Assembly: GCA_028285085.1 (NCBI GenBank)
Contig: JANQQI010000113.1
Span: forward strand, 1 to 64,000
Length of the DNA stretch: 64,000 bases
From: Saprospiraceae bacterium
Lineage (GTDB): Bacteria > Bacteroidota > Bacteroidia > Chitinophagales > Saprospiraceae
Direction of reading: 5' to 3'
Shown here: piece after piece, positions 1 through 51,882 of the stretch
Layout: each line of letters begins with the position of its first letter
How positions within the stretch are numbered: position 1 is the stretch's first letter
Notes under the pieces: generated by a model
Told to the model about the DNA's origin: nothing
The model's database searches: none
Seen by the model: the letters and a program-made list of their open reading frames with translations, nothing else
Program-made: the position numbers and the translations under genes

Positions 1-109
1 TTACGCGACCTGCATCTGCAGCACCACCTTTTACATTTTCCAATGCTTTGTCATCAAGAATGTCAATAGTGGTTTTGTTCAATTGCAGTTTTTTACCTAG
101 ATCTTTCAT
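1..109 (-). CDS. GG-leader RiPP-type precursor peptide, truncated by window edge
   Basis: Reverse strand from ATG at 109 reads MKDLGKKLQLNKTTIDILDDKALENVKGGAADAGRV... and runs off the left edge; near-identical leader to the 340-519 peptide. Confidence 0.8.
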   Translation of the reverse strand, partial: MKDLGKKLQLNKTTIDILDDKALENVKGGAADAGRV

Positions 110-339
110 GATTTATGAATTTGAAAGTGAAATAAATAAGACCTACTCTGTTAAAGGTTTTCGGATGCCCCTTATATATTCAAAATGCATAATGAATCGA
201 GAAAAAATGTCCAGTACTAAATGAATAAATTGATGGGCGCGTACTTCTTGGGATGTATATAGGAACATCGTTTTTGAAATCACATGCCCGTACCATCAAG
301 ATCAATTAAATAATACTGGCTAATGGAGAGGGCTAGTGA

Positions 340-519
340 CTAGTTCTCTTCTACTTCTTCCTCTTCTTTTGGACCATTACAAGATCCACAAGCGATAGAT
401 AGCAAGCCACAGCTTACACGACCAGCAGCAGCACCACCTTTTACACTCTCCAATGCTTTGTCATCAAGAATGTCAATAGTGGTTTTGTTCAGGTTAAGTT
501 TTTTACCTAAATTTTTCAT
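340..519 (-). CDS. GG-leader RiPP-type (class I lanthipeptide-like leader) precursor peptide, 59 aa
   Basis: MKNLGKKLNLNKTTIDILDDKALESVKGG|AAAGRVSCGLLSIACGSCNGPKEEEEVEEN*; the L.LNK.TI..L.D..L..VKGG leader is typical of Bacteroidota class I lanthipeptide-type precursors; core has 3 Cys and 3 Ser. Confidence 0.82.
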   Translation of the reverse strand: MKNLGKKLNLNKTTIDILDDKALESVKGGAAAGRVSCGLLSIACGSCNGPKEEEEVEEN

Positions 520-579
520 AATTAAAGGGTTTTAAGAAATTAAAAATATGTGTTAGAAATAATTTTATTATTCAGTCGA

Positions 580-1062
580 TCAGGGATTGTATTTATTTTT
601 TGTTTCCATTTTTTCAAAAAAATGAATCACACAATGCGTCTTATTTTTTGAAATGGGATATTTTCCTTTTTTTATACTAATCCAATATTTTTTATCGCGT
701 CGTAGTCGAAAAAAAGAAGTCTGAAAATCTTCCTGGACTAAAAAAAGATCTGAGGAAAAATATTTTTTTAAACAGTGTGCATCTAATACGGTAGTCAAAA
801 ATTCCAAGTCTAACCTTTGGTCTTGCCAGTAGCGAACTAAGGCTAAATATCCGGCTGTACAGTGTGTTGTTCTTCTAATATCTGTAGTGATGGTTTCTGC
901 GAGTGGGTTGAGACGACAGATCCCATGATTTTTACAATTTTTACCAAGCACACCAAATTCTACCGATGCATAAAACTTCAAGAAAGGAGATGTCGAGTTG
1001 GAGTGATGCTGCCAGTCCGTACTATCGACCACTATTTTTTGGTTTCCATTGGCAATATCCAT
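580..1062 (-). CDS. Uncharacterised 160-aa Cys-containing protein (GVLGKNCKNHGICRL motif)
   Basis: ORF track; co-directional with the GG-leader peptides, 60 bp gap to the downstream precursor; five Cys including CxxxxxC. Confidence 0.6.
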   Translation of the reverse strand: MDIANGNQKIVVDSTDWQHHSNSTSPFLKFYASVEFGVLGKNCKNHGICRLNPLAETITTDIRRTTHCTAGYLALVRYWQDQRLDLEFLTTVLDAHCLKKYFSSDLFLVQEDFQTSFFRLRRDKKYWISIKKGKYPISKNKTHCVIHFFEKMETKNKYNP

Positions 1063-1093
1063 GATGTGCTTCGAGTTCTAATGGTTGAGGATT

Positions 1094-1231
1094 TTAAATC
1101 CCGTAATCGTCTTCGATAATTATTTGATGGATTTGTTGTTCTTGTTCTAAGGTTAAATTATCCAGATCTGCAGGTGTGTCAATAATGCCCATGGAGATCA
1201 GTAGCGCGATAATTGCAGTAGTCAGTGTCAT
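1094..1231 (-). CDS. Small hypothetical protein, 45 aa
   Basis: MTLTTAIIALLISMGIIDTPADLDNLTLEQEQQIHQIIIEDDYGI*; first gene of the leftward small-gene block; internal ATG preferred over the longer track ORF. Confidence 0.5.
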   Translation of the reverse strand: MTLTTAIIALLISMGIIDTPADLDNLTLEQEQQIHQIIIEDDYGI

Positions 1232-1284
1232 AATATTTTTTGTTTTCGTTTGAACTAATGGGGATTTGTTTGTTTTCGTTGATT

Positions 1285-1292
1285 CAAATGTA
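1285..1292 (-). promoter_or_regulatory. Possible Bacteroidota -7 box (TACATTTG) for the leftward small-gene block
   Basis: Minus strand reads TACATTTG (TAnnTTTG consensus) about 55 bp upstream of ATG 1231; no clear -33 element seen. Confidence 0.35.
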
Positions 1293-1619
1293 GTGGCGAA
1301 AACTAGGGGACACACGGACAGAGATTTTTGCTTTAGCTTACTTTTTTATATCTTGGGCTTTGGCAAGTTTTTCCATCAATTCACTGATAATCAACGTTTT
1401 ATTTTTTCGCTTTGGTAAGTTTTAGTATTCTCAAGGCAAGCCTTTTACGGGATGGACAATTCCTCCTATTTTAGCCACTCCGCTCTCCACACAAAAACCT
1501 GGCAACTAAAAACACATCACATTGAATATCAACAACTTAAGATATTCAATCATCTATCTTATGTGAGAAAAACATGATGCGATCTAGGGAGTTTGGATCG
1601 CTTAAAAGTTGGGTGGAGT

Positions 1620-3146
1620 ATGAAAAATCTAAGACAAATTATCAACATCGTTAAGCATATCAAGCTTAAACCTTCGGACCTTATTACCTTCGATCAGTCG
1701 GCTGATACTAAGATCAATCAGTTTTATCAGAAGATTCAGAATGGCGCATTTACGACAGAAGATGAAGCCGCTCAGTTTTTCTATGGCTCGAACGTCAATA
1801 ACTCGAGTTACAAAAACCTCAAGAGCAATCTGCGCAATCGATTGATCAATACCTTATTCTTTATTAACTCAACTAAGAATCAGAACGAGCGAGAAAATGC
1901 TTACCTGTATTGTAGCAAATACAGTGTAGCGGGAAAGATCTTGTTCATCCTAAATATTAGGGAGGCAGGTACCGATTTATTCCAGAAAGTCTTACGCCGG
2001 GCGATTCATTTCGATTTTACCGAATATGTCATCGAAGCCGCTTATGCATTGCGTTCACATTATGCCATTCGCATTGGTAATGAGAAAAAGTTTGAGTACT
2101 ACAACGAAATGCTCAATCGCTACCATAAGATTCGAGAAGCCGAATTTCTCGCCGGAGAGTTATATCTACGCATCCTGATTCCCTACATTAAGAACAAGTC
2201 AATCAAAGAAGACACTTATCAACAAGCTAAAGATGCGCTCGATAAATTGGCACCTTATCTAACCCAGTACGATTCACCTTATTTACATTATATCGGCTTT
2301 TACATTGAATCACTCATCTACCTCAGTAAGAATGATTATGCGACCACGGTAGAGGTCTGTGTTCGAGCGATCGACTTTTTTGATCAAAAACCCTACGCCT
2401 ACAACACTGCCATCAAAGCGTTTTTGCACCAGCAGATTTTGTGTTATACCCAATTGAAGCAATTTCAGGAAGGGCGCCAGGCCATCGAAAAAAGTAATGC
2501 GATTGTGCGGGCCGGCAGCTACAATTGGTATGTCAACACCGATTTGCACGAAACTCTGGAATTACATTCCAAGAATTACCAAGAAGCCTATTACGTTTTC
2601 AATAAAGCCGTCGGACACAAAAAATTCAGTCAGCTCAACGATCGTATCCGCGAAAAGTGGCAAATCTATGAGGCCTATATTCATTTTCTTGTTTTTACCG
2701 AGCGCGTACAACCTATTCGAGGTGACAAGCGCTTCACGAAGTTCAAGATGGGGCGTTTTCTCAATAGCGTGCCAACCTTCTCTAAAGATAAACGCGGTCT
2801 GAATATTCCGATCTTGGTGATTCAGATTGTGTTTATGATTGTCAAAAAGGACTACGAGCAGGCCGTCAATCGCATCGAAGCAATCGATAAATACCGCTCG
2901 CGCTATTTGCGTAAAGACGACAACTTCCGCAGCAATTGTTTTATAAAAATGCTACTGCAAATTCCGATTTCGGGATTTCATAAAGCCGGGATTGAACGTC
3001 GTGCTAAAAAATACGTGGATATGCTCAGTTCGGTACCGCTAGAAATTGCCCGCCAAGCCAATGAAATTGAAATCATTCCTTACGAAGATTTGTGGGAGAT
3101 CATTATCGATGCCTTGGAAACGCGATTCTATCGACCGAGGGGCTAA
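1620..3146 (+). CDS. Uncharacterised ~508-aa helical/TPR-like protein, paralog of 50392-51882
   Basis: ORF track; ATG at 1620 (MKNLRQIINIVKHIK). Strong C-terminal similarity to 50392-51882 (K(F/P)KMGRFLNSVPTFSKDKRGLNIPILVIQI / RFPLGKFMNEVPIASQDKTGSNINILLVQI). Confidence 0.75.
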   Translation: MKNLRQIINIVKHIKLKPSDLITFDQSADTKINQFYQKIQNGAFTTEDEAAQFFYGSNVNNSSYKNLKSNLRNRLINTLFFINSTKNQNERENAYLYCSKYSVAGKILFILNIREAGTDLFQKVLRRAIHFDFTEYVIEAAYALRSHYAIRIGNEKKFEYYNEMLNRYHKIREAEFLAGELYLRILIPYIKNKSIKEDTYQQAKDALDKLAPYLTQYDSPYLHYIGFYIESLIYLSKNDYATTVEVCVRAIDFFDQKPYAYNTAIKAFLHQQILCYTQLKQFQEGRQAIEKSNAIVRAGSYNWYVNTDLHETLELHSKNYQEAYYVFNKAVGHKKFSQLNDRIREKWQIYEAYIHFLVFTERVQPIRGDKRFTKFKMGRFLNSVPTFSKDKRGLNIPILVIQIVFMIVKKDYEQAVNRIEAIDKYRSRYLRKDDNFRSNCFIKMLLQIPISGFHKAGIERRAKKYVDMLSSVPLEIARQANEIEIIPYEDLWEIIIDALETRFYRPRG

Positions 3147-20172: not shown

Positions 20173-23028
20173 GTACCATTGATAAAACCCGAAAGAGAAT
20201 AAAACCAATCCTATCCACCACCAACGATGGTAACCTAATTGGGCATGAATCGCTTGTGTATCACCAATCGTAATAAAGGGCGACCATAAAAAGGGATGGG
20301 CATCATGATGATCTGCGAGAGATAAGTAATTGAGTTTTGCGCGTTGATTAGCTATATCTTTAGGATATCCATCCTGAATTTCATCGTAAAACAACTCCAT
20401 CATTAGAAGTGCCTTATCATCGGCCACTTTCCAAAGTGTGGTATTAATACATCCTGCTCCGGCATATGAAAAACTTCGTGCCAAGCTAATCACGCCTTCT
20501 CCTTCACGTAGTTCACCGATACCTGTTTCACAAGCACTTAAAGTCACCATATCTGCTCGTAGGGCTACGTTGTAAATATCTTTTGTAAATAAATATTCAT
20601 TTTCAATTGTATCATAAACTTCAGAAAAAGCAAGAAAGCTGTAATCACCATCAACATCGTCTGCTTTTCCATGTGTAGCGAGGTGAATGATCTGATGTTT
20701 TTTTGAAAGATTCGTGAACTCATCCTCTGTCGCTTTACGGCCGCTTATTACTGTTCCTCGCCCGAGTGTTGCCGAGACACTTTCTGCTTCGGGAATATTA
20801 TAAACCAAAGGCGTCAATCTCGTAGAACGTAAATGAAAACTCCGAGTAATTGTGCCAAAGGACGGCGCAAAGGCAATAAAAGATTCCTCTGCAATATCGT
20901 CTCGTTTATCGATCATTTCTTTCAGCAAGGTGCTTGAATAACAATAACTGACAGCATAATCCCGAATCAGATATGCGTGATTCTTATACAAGTGTGTCAC
21001 TTCTGGCGGGCTCATCAAAAATGATTCAAAGGGAATGCCCGCAAGGATGCTCCCAGGAATAATGATCAATCGCTCCGGTAAATCCTCTTTTACCGGCATA
21101 ATGAGTTCCTGATACAAGTCAAAAGCGGCAATCGTATAATCAAGGTGGTATTCGCTGGGCAGATTAAATGGATACTGGAATCGAATAATTCCTTCTCGCA
21201 AAGCTGTCACCCACTCCTCAAGTGGATACGATTTCGCAAGGCGTTTAACCTGAAATTGATCTTTTTTAATTAGAAAGAGAAATACAGCTTCTTCCCCGAC
21301 GAAATACTCTAAGATGGCCTGGTCAGAGTCAATGATATCTTGTATTTCGGCAATTTGGATAGTGCTCAGATCATATTTAAGTTGATAATACTGAGGATAA
21401 TTTTCTTCAAAATGAGCGATTAGTTGGTTTAGCTGTTGTTTCAAGTCAAAAATATTGCTGTTATATCGCGCTAAACTTGTAAGATCACGTTGCTCTATTA
21501 TTTTTTGTTCTTCTTCGTTTTTTAGTTTCTCATAAGTCGTGATATCTGTTTTAATTTTCGTTTCTTTTTCAATTAAGTCTTCTGGAATACCTGCAAAACG
21601 TTTTGCTTTCGAGAGTCGAAGTGCTTCCAGCAGCACAAAGCTGGAACTATACTCGCATCGCCGGAAGGCTTCATGAAGATATTTTTCGTTTTGGGTTTGT
21701 AAAAAAAGAGCGTAACTCACTTCGATAGCATCGTTAAAAATATGTTGATAACGCTCAGCTAGAATTTCTTTTGACGTCTCCTCTTGAAACTCGGATCTAA
21801 ATTTATTGAGTAGATCGATCAAATGGGTGTAAGCTTCATTGGCTAAGAGGAGATGGTCACTGGATTGTTTTCGATACATTTCCCAATGTATTCTTGCCTT
21901 AATATCTAAAGCTTCCAGTATTTGAACGTTATAGTTTGCCTTGAAATCCAATTGACGAGGCTGGTAACCAAAGGCATCCAGTGCAAAATTGATTTTCTTA
22001 AGGGCTATTGTTGGCTCGTTTTGTAAAAAGCGTATTTCTGCAATCTTAGCGAGGCAAATTGCTGTTTCAGGATGCTCATCGCCAAATATAGCGTGATTAG
22101 TGCGATGTGCTTTTTCGTAATATGCTTTTGCCTCAACTATTGCTCCCATCTCTAGCTGACTATCAGCCATTGCGTAATAATTACTTGCTACTTCAGGGTG
22201 ATTCTCGCCAAGTACCTCTAGCCGGATCGCCAAAGCTTCACGAAAATGTTGCATTGCTTTTTTGTAGTTCTTGAGGCCGTGGAAGATGAGGCCCTGAGTA
22301 TAAATAATTCGCGCTCCTTGAGAAGAACTAATAAGCCCATGCCTGTTGTTTATAACATAGGCAAAGTCTATTGCATTTTTTGCTTTTACAAATTCCTTTT
22401 TCTGATAATAGCAGGTGGCAATGTTATTAAAATCGCTAGCCATTTTATAATACTCTCCTCCAAATGAATTAATTGTTATTGATGACGTGTTTCTAAAAAA
22501 ATTTAATGATCTAGCAATATCACCTTTGTAGTTAAGGCAGATGGCAATATTATTATGTGTAACGCCTATTCTAGGATCATCATCTGACAAAGTCTTCTTA
22601 TACAAAATCAAGGCCTGCTCATAATACTCAATAGCTCGATCATAATCAGCCATATAATCATAATAAATCCCAATGAGTACGTAAGCATCGCCAATCTCCT
22701 TGGCATCCTCTGGTAAAGTTGCTTGCATTATTTCTAACGCCCGCTGTAAATAATTTAGAGCTTTAGAATACTCTGCCACATCTAAATAACAACTCCCCAA
22801 GTGATAATAAATCTTAGCTGTCTCTTTACTTATTTCACCACAAACAGATAAATAAATCTCTAAGGCATTATATAAAACAGGTATGGCATCTTTAGGACGG
22901 TATTGACGTTCTAAATCAGTAGCTTCTTTCAATAATAACCTAGCCGCAGTTGTATCGCGTTGAGTTTGTCCGAATAAAAGATTGAAAGAAAAAATAGAAA
23001 GGGATAAGACCGTACAGACGTACCTCAT
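20161..23028 (-). CDS. TPR repeat and CHAT domain-containing protein (signal peptide, C-terminal TM)
   Basis: TPR array; CHAT motifs HLATHGKAD and TLSACETGIGELREGEGVISLARSFSYAGAGCINTTLW; C-terminal WWWIGLVLFSFGFYQWYKKS. Start MRYVCTVLSLSIFSFNLLFGQ preferred. Confidence 0.9.
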   Translation of the reverse strand: MRYVCTVLSLSIFSFNLLFGQTQRDTTAARLLLKEATDLERQYRPKDAIPVLYNALEIYLSVCGEISKETAKIYYHLGSCYLDVAEYSKALNYLQRALEIMQATLPEDAKEIGDAYVLIGIYYDYMADYDRAIEYYEQALILYKKTLSDDDPRIGVTHNNIAICLNYKGDIARSLNFFRNTSSITINSFGGEYYKMASDFNNIATCYYQKKEFVKAKNAIDFAYVINNRHGLISSSQGARIIYTQGLIFHGLKNYKKAMQHFREALAIRLEVLGENHPEVASNYYAMADSQLEMGAIVEAKAYYEKAHRTNHAIFGDEHPETAICLAKIAEIRFLQNEPTIALKKINFALDAFGYQPRQLDFKANYNVQILEALDIKARIHWEMYRKQSSDHLLLANEAYTHLIDLLNKFRSEFQEETSKEILAERYQHIFNDAIEVSYALFLQTQNEKYLHEAFRRCEYSSSFVLLEALRLSKAKRFAGIPEDLIEKETKIKTDITTYEKLKNEEEQKIIEQRDLTSLARYNSNIFDLKQQLNQLIAHFEENYPQYYQLKYDLSTIQIAEIQDIIDSDQAILEYFVGEEAVFLFLIKKDQFQVKRLAKSYPLEEWVTALREGIIRFQYPFNLPSEYHLDYTIAAFDLYQELIMPVKEDLPERLIIIPGSILAGIPFESFLMSPPEVTHLYKNHAYLIRDYAVSYCYSSTLLKEMIDKRDDIAEESFIAFAPSFGTITRSFHLRSTRLTPLVYNIPEAESVSATLGRGTVISGRKATEDEFTNLSKKHQIIHLATHGKADDVDGDYSFLAFSEVYDTIENEYLFTKDIYNVALRADMVTLSACETGIGELREGEGVISLARSFSYAGAGCINTTLWKVADDKALLMMELFYDEIQDGYPKDIANQRAKLNYLSLADHHDAHPFLWSPFITIGDTQAIHAQLGYHRWWWIGLVLFSFGFYQWYKKS

Positions 23029-50103: not shown

Positions 50104-50241
50104 CTACATGCTGTCGACATCAACGATCACGATCGTTGTATCGGCATCTGTAGTTGTATCCGTTCCACCTTTAATTTGTGCTTGCTGTTGTGCATTAAGT
50201 ACAACCAGCTTATCGTTGTGTATGAGTTTCAAAATATCCAT
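50104..50241 (-). CDS. GG-leader peptide, 45 aa, Thr/Asp-rich core
   Basis: Reverse strand reads MDILKLIHNDKLVVLNAQQQAQIKGG|TDTTTDADTTIVIVDVDSM*; below track cut-off. Confidence 0.65.
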   Translation of the reverse strand: MDILKLIHNDKLVVLNAQQQAQIKGGTDTTTDADTTIVIVDVDSM

Positions 50242-50391: not shown

Positions 50392-51882
50392 ATGATTGCA
50401 CTTTACGAGTTGATACAATTATTGCCTGCCTCTTTTGAAGCCCCTTTCCGCAATCGCCTTAATGAGCTCTATTTATTCCTACGCCAACACCCCGGATTAA
50501 GCGAAAAAGAAGCGGCCCAACATTTTTTGGAGGGCAATGATAAGCATTTCAACAAACTCAAAAATCAACTTAAAGAGGCGATTTGCGCTTATCTCATCAC
50601 TCAGCCCGCGAATTGGGCCGATAATGATCAAAAACAGACGTTCGATACGGCACTCAAACAATTCACAGTGTCAAAAATCCTATTAGCTGCTAGTCGCCGA
50701 AAAGCAGGTATTGAAAGAGCTTTAGCGGTATTGAAAAAGCTAGAATACTTGGAAGCACACGCTTTGATCTATTCGGTAGCGATTGATTTACAATTCCACT
50801 TTTCCAGTATCGATCCCAATGCAAAACTGGCGCGATATTATGCTAAAGTTGTTGAGCAACAAACTGAGTTTATCCGCATTGAAAGTGAGGTGCGATTAGC
50901 TTATAGCAGAATCGGATTACTTTGTAATAAGCGAAATAGTTATCCGCCTTCTATTGTTATAGAAGTGGAGGCTATCGCAAAAAAATGTGAGGGATATTCT
51001 AATGTGGCGTCCACCCCAATACGCCGCTTTGTACATACCATTCAGGCTATTCGGTATATCATCAGTTATGATTATGAGCATACGATCCAGCAATGTAATG
51101 CTGCCTTACGTGCTTTTGATCGTAGCTATGCGAATTACAATGCGATCTGCTTTGATTTCATCTCTAAGCAGATTCCCGCTTTGCTGGCAACAGGACAACT
51201 GAAGAAAGCCAAAGAGATGGCTAAAAAGGCCGGTCAGATGATGCCGAAAGGTCAATTCAACTGGCAGTATGCCTTACTTTGTCGTGTCATTGTTTGTTTT
51301 CATCAAGGCCAATACCAAGAGGCTTATGATTTGGCGAAAGCTAAAGGAAAAGCAACACCATCCTACCCTATCTTAGCGGAGCAATGGAAAATCATTAAAG
51401 GCTATATGCATTTTTTGATTCTTACCGGTCATATCGAGCCTTATCGCGAGGAACGCTTTCCTTTGGGGAAATTTATGAATGAAGTACCGATTGCCAGCCA
51501 AGATAAAACCGGGAGCAATATCAACATTTTGCTCGTCCAGATTCTCATTCAAATGTACCGCGGTGAATACGGCAAAATCATTGATCGCATTGATGCATTA
51601 CGTGATTATGTCCGCACCTATACCAGAAATCCCGAGACGATTCGGGCGAATTTATTTCTAACAATGATTCTAAAAATGGAAGCCGCCAGTTTCCATCGGG
51701 CCGGTACCGAACGAAAAACCGGTCGACTGCTGAAAAAATTAATGCAAACACCCATTGCACTCAGTCAAAATATTGGCGTGGAGATTATCCCTTATCCAGT
51801 GCTCTGGCAAATGATGCTAACGCTGCTAGAGAATAAATTCCGCACGCCTAAAACCAGACGTTCCAAAACGTCAATGTCCTAA
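50392..51882 (+). CDS. Uncharacterised 496-aa helical/TPR-like protein, paralog of 1620-3146
   Basis: ORF track; aligned C-terminal blocks with 1620-3146, e.g. ASFHRAGTERKTGRLLKKL vs SGFHKAGIERRAKKYVDML and VEIIPYPVLWQMM vs IEIIPYEDLWEII. Confidence 0.78.
   Translation: MIALYELIQLLPASFEAPFRNRLNELYLFLRQHPGLSEKEAAQHFLEGNDKHFNKLKNQLKEAICAYLITQPANWADNDQKQTFDTALKQFTVSKILLAASRRKAGIERALAVLKKLEYLEAHALIYSVAIDLQFHFSSIDPNAKLARYYAKVVEQQTEFIRIESEVRLAYSRIGLLCNKRNSYPPSIVIEVEAIAKKCEGYSNVASTPIRRFVHTIQAIRYIISYDYEHTIQQCNAALRAFDRSYANYNAICFDFISKQIPALLATGQLKKAKEMAKKAGQMMPKGQFNWQYALLCRVIVCFHQGQYQEAYDLAKAKGKATPSYPILAEQWKIIKGYMHFLILTGHIEPYREERFPLGKFMNEVPIASQDKTGSNINILLVQILIQMYRGEYGKIIDRIDALRDYVRTYTRNPETIRANLFLTMILKMEAASFHRAGTERKTGRLLKKLMQTPIALSQNIGVEIIPYPVLWQMMLTLLENKFRTPKTRRSKTSMS

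Follow-up and report, generated by a model that had tools for sequence, protein, structure and literature searches.

A conserved F1-F2-F0 gene cassette heads a class I lanthipeptide operon in a Saprospiraceae bacterium and is likely to act as a peptide/TPR-protein switch

The start of the stretch of DNA analysed here, 64,000 nucleotides that we call the window, raises the question of what two small genes are doing in front of a pair of apparent RiPP precursors. The sequence-only reading had placed two GG-leader precursor ORFs and two further small co-directional genes at positions 1–1231, assigned the leaders to the Bacteroidota class I lanthipeptide type, and inferred maturation or export genes to the left of base 1, whose absence it named as grounds for refutation. 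All of this held, and the RiPP reading is supported, but the two small genes are not RiPP genes: they are parts of a separate conserved cassette, whose link to the divergent gene at 1620–3146 had been missed. Positions 1–3146 are in our view likely to be the head of a class I lanthipeptide operon controlled by a peptide/TPR-protein switch, of which the peptide binding, export and DNA binding are inferred. The features concerned are as follows.

Positions 1–109 (ORF 2–109), minus strand: LanA1, 5′ part of the second precursor, leader MKDLGKKLQLNKTTIDILDDKALENVKGG followed by AADAGRV, truncated at the contig end
Contig C23, positions 22233–22358, minus strand: remainder of LanA1, reached through a 61-bp identical overlap
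Positions 340–519, minus strand: LanA2 precursor, 59 aa, GG leader MKNLGKKLNLNKTTIDILDDKALESVKGG (above the NF038153 cut-off) and core AAAGRVSCGLLSIACGSCNGPKEEEEVEEN
Positions 580–1062, minus strand: F0, accessory protein, 160 aa, motif VEFGxxxKNCxxxGIC
Positions 1094–1231, minus strand: F2, candidate pro-signal and first gene of the operon, 45 aa from its ATG, MTLTTAIIALLISMGIIDTPADLDNLTLEQEQQIHQIIIEDDYGI
Positions 1285–1320, minus strand: promoter element TGTCC-N23-TACATTTG, upstream of F2
Positions 1620–3146, plus strand: F1, candidate peptide receptor/regulator, 508 aa, divergent from F2
Positions 50104–50241, minus strand: F2b, a second such peptide, double-glycine leader MDILKLIHNDKLVVLNAQQQAQIKGG followed by TDTTTDADTTIVIVDVDSM, with no same-strand gene after it
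Positions 50392–51882, plus strand: F1b, second F1 paralog in the window, 496 aa, 299 bits with the A2 profile

The window is contig C88, taken from its first base, of a 7.47-Mb assembly in 140 contigs, and its positions 1–61 are identical to the last 61 bases of contig C23. Because this 61-bp overlap spans the AADAGRV codons, which tell LanA1 from the neighbouring LanA2, the two contigs very probably abut, with a single LanA1 gene spanning both. In a genome search the LanA1 precursor sequence was found only at these two contig ends and in its neighbour A2; two separate gene copies with 61 bases in common are an improbable arrangement that is not fully excluded. Completed on C23 as MKDLGKKLQLNKTTIDILDDKALENVKGGAADAGRVSCGLLSIACNSCNTQEEEDDAELSGN, the joined precursor consists of the leader MKDLGKKLQLNKTTIDILDDKALENVKGG and the core AADAGRVSCGLLSIACNSCNTQEEEDDAELSGN.

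The two leaders scored 30.5 and 30.8 bits against NF038153 (lant_leader_L1a; curated cut-off 22), with E values of 3–4e-6 in a whole-genome search, and are therefore not chance resemblances. The LanA2 core carries three Ser and three Cys and an acidic tail, and both precursors meet the definition of a class I precursor with a recognised leader and a Ser/Thr and Cys core. The sequence-only reading had also asked for conservation in relatives. No homologue of the LanA precursor was found in 197 genomes, the own genome aside (E ≤ 0.01), and the NF038153-type leader family is present in only 7 of the 197; core conservation cannot be used as evidence because there are no precursor relatives in the related genomes searched. 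To the left of the window, where the maturation and export genes had been expected, contig C23 reads on from LanA1 as follows, which excludes the named refutation.

C23, 344 bp after LanA1: LanC, 398 aa, PF05147 (133 bits)
C23, after LanC: Bac_luciferase/LLM flavoenzyme, 306 aa, PF00296
C23, after the LLM gene: full-length LanB, 1039 aa, PF04738 (439 bits) and PF14028 (210 bits)
C23, after LanB: C39-peptidase ABC transporter, 740 aa, PF03412, PF00664 and PF00005
C23, after the transporter (L006:3761–4252): short HlyD-like protein, 163 aa
C23, after the HlyD-like gene: TonB-type outer-membrane receptor, 790 aa

These genes and the precursors form a class I lanthipeptide cluster, whose thioether-bridged product is inferred. 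The requirement for a LanB with glutamylation and elimination domains is met by PF04738 and PF14028 in one protein, and that for a stand-alone LanC cyclase by the PF05147 match; the LanC sequence contains the stretches GWCYGP and LCHGTAG, which we take to be where the LanC zinc ligands lie. LanB would dehydrate Ser residues in the core, LanC would convert core Cys residues into thioether rings, and the C39 transporter would cleave the precursor after the GG and then export the product. Bacteroidetes class I LanAs with an LxLxKx5L motif, GG ends and C39 proteases have been described by Walker et al. (PMC7268733), and the present cluster resembles these lanthipeptides, the pinensin group included, in leader motif, GG site, C39 protease, LanB and LanC. 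It differs from the pinensin cluster, in which LanB is split (PMC7268733), in its full-length LanB, and nothing akin to its core GRVSCGLLSIAC(G/N)SCN with acidic tail turned up in the related genomes searched. The LLM-family enzyme recalls the luciferase-like LanJC reductases known from birimositide (PMC7268733) and by analogy may reduce a dehydro residue, cofactor and reaction being untested; its closest curated family, however, is the MsnO8-type LLM, just under whose cut-off it falls. The cluster thus adds one member to an already known type, and the main novelty of the locus is the F1-F2-F0 cassette.

A second class I lanthipeptide cluster lies in the same genome (G000 contig C68:20384–32250, L023), with three GG-leader precursors, LanC, an LLM-like protein, LanB (1070 aa), a second LanC-domain protein (634 aa), a C39-type ABC transporter and a full-length HlyD-like protein. 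The latter has 425 aa against the 163 aa of its counterpart on C23, in which a long coiled-coil region is seemingly missing; either another export adaptor is used or the short gene has suffered an internal deletion, both of which are conceivable.

In the window the genes are ordered F2, 31 bp, F0, 60 bp, LanA2, with F1 divergent. The F0 family occurs in 31 of the 197 genomes, most of them without lanthipeptide leaders, and its neighbourhoods contain two recurring partners, F1 of about 505 aa and the tiny ORF F2 between F0 and F1. Scanning GTDB genomes with an F1 alignment gave 210 related stretches, from which the best 80 loci were retained; nearly all come from Saprospiraceae and Lewinella-type records, among them Lewinella cohaerens DSM 23179 and Flavilitoribacter nigricans DSM 23189, and F1 occurs in more remote families as well, being present in 22 of 398 genomes sampled from the whole phylum. 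F0 adjoins F1 in 51 of the 80 loci, and F1 is accompanied by F2 at every full-length paralog of the own genome as well as in distant members of the phylum. F1, F2 and F0 constitute a conserved, previously undescribed cassette that here heads a lanthipeptide operon. The model of F0 is β-rich (pLDDT 81), with Cys 43 nearly invariant and Cys 49 invariant across the family. F0 was rejected as a RiPP enzyme or a known fold, there being no match in Pfam, NCBIfam, PADLOC or the PDB, and a reading of F1 and F0 as a known anti-phage defence system was rejected, neither having a PADLOC match.

F2 peptides are 17–54 aa long with a conserved C-terminus of about V/I-I-I-x-D-x(3-6), as in ...DVIIIDIAGV, ...KVIVVDIIAPSA, ...EIIIIDMNGV and, after a VKGG leader end, VIVVDIIAPL. 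Over the 80 loci this signature, defined as an I/V-rich run and then an Asp no more than ~10 residues from the end, was present in 39 of 1731 small ORFs in the two positions beside F1 and in 19 of 13,844 elsewhere (Fisher p 5e-24), and a position-specific scan placed F2-like peptides at about 45 of the 80 loci. The F2 set was gathered by motif, so that the conservation of its residues is partly by construction, and for this reason the positional, codon-level and own-genome paralog tests are the more independent evidence. Between homologous F2 pairs the last ten codons showed 47 synonymous and 28 non-synonymous changes against 61 and 183 in the rest (p 1e-10), and third codon positions in the I/V-D block are near-random. 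The C-terminus is thus conserved at the protein level; its reading as a DNA element was rejected, the third positions being free to vary. In the own genome a divergent F2 lies within 127–388 bp of each of the eight full-length F1 paralogs, compared with 0 of 91 control genes (p 6e-12); the pattern used had been loosened slightly ahead of the control run.

The N-terminus of F2 is variable. Two F2 of the own genome have double-glycine leaders, the shortest one there is MLLELILSIIIVDITEG, and in a distant family F2 ends in ...LPYIIDRGEEN, with four tandem separate ORFs in one locus; in another, a 47-aa ORF (L191:900–1043) contains the three repeats LIIDRGENN, FIIDRGEGN and YIIDRGEEN. In many divergent F2 a strongly hydrophobic N-terminus leads into an acid-rich linker without a clear cleavage site, and others are hydrophilic or only 17–19 aa long. 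Hydrophobic or GG leaders are found in part of the set, and many F2 have no recognisable export signal. F2 satisfies the requirement of RRNPP/RRNPPA systems for an adjacent small propeptide gene with a conserved C-terminal signal.

The AlphaFold2 model of F1 (67 sequences; pLDDT 88.8, pTM 0.84) is all helical, and its top PDB folds in Foldseek are mostly TPR proteins (MalT domain III, LGN, Tom70, RapI, RapH and KLC1), none of them matching with E ≤ 0.001. Family members match several Pfam TPR models weakly; F1 belongs to no specific family in Pfam, NCBIfam or PADLOC, and its sequence found nothing in the PDB but a designed TPR at E 0.35. The model thus predicts a TPR-like solenoid without a close family, for which peptide binding is inferred. 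The requirement of RRNPP/RRNPPA systems for a TPR-type helical-repeat receptor domain is met by the model, Foldseek and the weak Pfam matches; that for homology to Rap, Rgg, NprR, PlcR, PrgX or AimR is not. In place of the N-terminal HTH of Rgg, NprR, PlcR, PrgX and AimR or the three-helix bundle of Rap, no HTH or other DNA-binding domain was recognised in F1. Its first ~85 residues are modelled as helices of their own, which carry conserved basic positions and match no family, and it is no more than a guess that the helical region at residues 30–81 (consensus YxNLKxxLKxRL) could contact DNA.

Several F1-related genes depart from this picture. Three truncated copies in the own genome (G000 C140:66307, C82:75225 and C120:7062) have no detectable F2 and might be decayed channels. 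At L216:2412–3950, apparently on the same contig as L154, the F1 that precedes genes for a C39 exporter and for nine double-glycine peptides contains an in-frame stop, and is either broken or affected by a sequence error. Proteins of ~516 aa with the N-terminus MPKQKTDDLIQLIKSLTRAEKRHFRLF (L089:6151–7710, L095:1123–2673 and L219:8304–9854) seem to form a related family; at two of these loci they are neighbours of F1 and at the other of a GG-leader peptide, and they are possibly related receptors.

The promoter region of F2 often has the form TGTC(C/T), 22–24 (mostly 23) bases, then TANNTTTG. The TANNTTTG box is the usual Bacteroidota −7 element. This arrangement was found in 27 of 61 F2 upstream regions versus 1.3 in shuffles, a count in which TGTCG was accepted too, as was a second box starting with C; in over half of the F2 upstream regions it was not found. 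The 80 loci together (1.06 Mb) hold 54 sites, of which 47 lie within 2 kb of F1, a zone comprising 20.5% of the strands (p 2e-25), with extra sites before the cargo gene in L150 and L138. Within the loci studied, TGTC(C/T)-N23-TANNTTTG is thus nearly confined to the neighbourhood of F1. The own genome contains six matches, one of them the F2 promoter at 1285–1320, and the reversed control also contains six, so that a genome-wide TGTCC regulon was rejected and none can be demonstrated past the local site. Since the sites are nearly confined to the vicinity of F1 without genome-wide excess, the factor that reads them appears to be locus-bound, with F1 the sole conserved candidate. No TGTCC box was found upstream of F2 at the other seven F1 paralogs of the own genome. 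Two of these paralogs, on C60 and C96 (L177 and L178), have in its place a near-identical TTTTACAA-type stretch upstream of F2, reading AGTTTTACAAT...TTGATTTTGTAWAA, which could be another regulator-specific site.

What follows F0 differs between loci: lanthipeptide, NHLP, NRPS, PKS-type and double-glycine-peptide clusters and giant SdrD-like proteins were all seen, and the cargo is specialised metabolism or giant surface-type proteins.

L152: JmjC protein and DUF4135 (LanM-type dehydratase) protein
L071 and L139: adjoining NHLP-like leader genes (in L071 a label read from the sequence, without a model match)
L085: NRPS modules
L084: CmlA-type hydroxylase, NusG and a neighbouring phosphopantetheinyl-transferase-like gene (the last labelled from its sequence only)
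L083 and L099: ketosynthase, ketoreductase and ACP genes (ACP labelled by sequence, without a model match)
L122: SPASM protein and apparent ATP-grasp partner (the latter again labelled by sequence)
L121: radical SAM protein and TonB-type receptor
L216: exporter and at least nine double-glycine peptides
L101, L129, L138 and L150: giant SdrD_B-domain proteins, mostly where F1, F2 and F0 are co-directional

In the switch that we propose, the ligand would be the C-terminal 8–12 residues of F2, bound by F1 in its TPR groove, and the F1-peptide complex would activate the TGTCC promoter and with it F2 itself, by positive feedback, F0 and the cargo. There are no binding, export, import or expression data, and each of these steps is inferred, as are the export and re-import of the peptide. 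A bolder reading makes of this a peptide-pheromone system that spans the phylum of the Gram-negative Bacteroidota and is evolutionarily distinct from RRNPP. The C-terminal peptide of F2 would be secreted and then detected by F1 within the cell, and F1 would read the TGTC(C/T) box, thereby switching on natural-product clusters and the giant surface proteins; a single genome would hold some eight such channels in parallel. We rate this extension slightly less likely than not.

Of the alternatives, two survive best, both of them improbable. F2 could be a cell-internal partner of F1 whose C-terminus docks on the TPR protein as EEVD-type motifs do on TPR co-chaperones and whose hydrophobic N-terminus holds F1 at the membrane or inhibits it there, without cell-to-cell communication. 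The many divergent F2 with hydrophobic N-terminus, acid-rich linker and no clear cleavage site speak for this, as does the position of the signature at the very C-terminus, but the hydrophilic or 17–19-aa F2, the double-glycine leaders and the three-repeat ORF suit processed, exported signals. Alternatively, a dedicated factor other than F1, such as an ECF sigma factor or an orphan activator, could read TGTC(C/T)-N23-TANNTTTG, with F1 acting indirectly as Rap does on its partners. The lack of a recognised DNA-binding domain in F1 and the presence of Rap proteins among its fold matches are in favour; against it, no other regulator gene is conserved in the cassette, and the own genome has no excess of sites past F2, which makes the reading factor seem locus-bound.

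Two further alternatives are very unlikely. In the first, F2 is a translated leader, that is, a ribosome-arrest or attenuation peptide for the downstream genes, and F1 a bystander. The variable N-terminus, the conserved C-terminus near the stop codon and the position of the window F2 31 bp before F0 would fit, but several F2 of the own genome (window 50104–50241, C8, C14 and C68) have no close same-strand gene behind them, by which the attenuator reading is disfavoured; a long perfect inverted repeat follows the C68 F2, and the repeated units in one ORF and the F1 link at 8/8 full-length paralogs are likewise against it. In the second, F2 is a bacteriocin or RiPP substrate and F1 an immunity or recognition protein. 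F2 peptides are indeed small and sometimes tandem or GG-leadered, but no modifying enzyme is conserved beside F1 and F2, the unit also precedes NRPS, PKS-type and surface-protein genes, and F2 can be as short as 17 aa. Finally, the locus might be no more than a standard class I lanthipeptide operon preceded by two small hypothetical genes that have nothing to do with it. The presence of every lanthipeptide part speaks for this, but as a full account it is all but ruled out because F1, F2 and F0 recur jointly in dozens of loci with entirely different cargo and without lanthipeptide genes.

The peptide/TPR-protein switch that we prefer has a close parallel in Rgg/SHP, where RiPP operons are controlled, with positive feedback, by a regulator with a TPR domain and a short hydrophobic peptide encoded divergently from it (PMC13361665, which also reviews the Group I/II layout and the control of RaS-RiPPs); layout, peptide style and targets are strikingly alike. 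Some RRNPPA propeptides are also pseudo-repeated (PMC9765709). Unlike Rgg and other RRNPP regulators, F1 has about 505 aa, lacks a recognised HTH and matches no RRNPP member significantly in sequence or fold; the cassette hosts are Gram-negative Bacteroidota, the most constant position of F2 is an Asp a few residues from the C-terminus, and there is a third gene, F0, and a Bacteroidota-type promoter. Rap-Phr offers a TPR receptor without HTH beside a small propeptide gene, with RapI and RapH among the structure matches of F1, but their TM-score normalised by F1 is only about 0.3, among generic TPR matches, and Rap targets response regulators or activators, of which none is conserved beside F1. 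Because the homology test failed and no DNA-binding domain was recognised, we describe F1 as working like RRNPP and do not call it RRNPP; by analogy, F1/F2 looks likely to be a Gram-negative counterpart of Rgg/SHP signalling. RRNPP-type systems have been surveyed in Firmicutes (PMC10075063), and the genera in which RRNPPA genes are reported belong to the Firmicutes, all except one to the Bacilli (PMC9765709); we found no report of F1/F2-type peptide signalling in Bacteroidota or Saprospiraceae in the literature searched.

The combined signature of F1 profile, F2 C-terminus and TGTC(C/T)-N23-TANNTTTG points to unannotated clusters, and the switch can be tested now, as two of the loci (L138 and L141) are in the cultured type strain Lewinella cohaerens DSM 23179. 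If it is confirmed, synthetic peptides of 8–12 residues would serve as inexpensive inducers, the RiPP, NRPS and PKS-type clusters of Saprospiraceae would have a candidate regulator, and Bacteroidota would gain peptide signalling of a kind so far described from Firmicutes.
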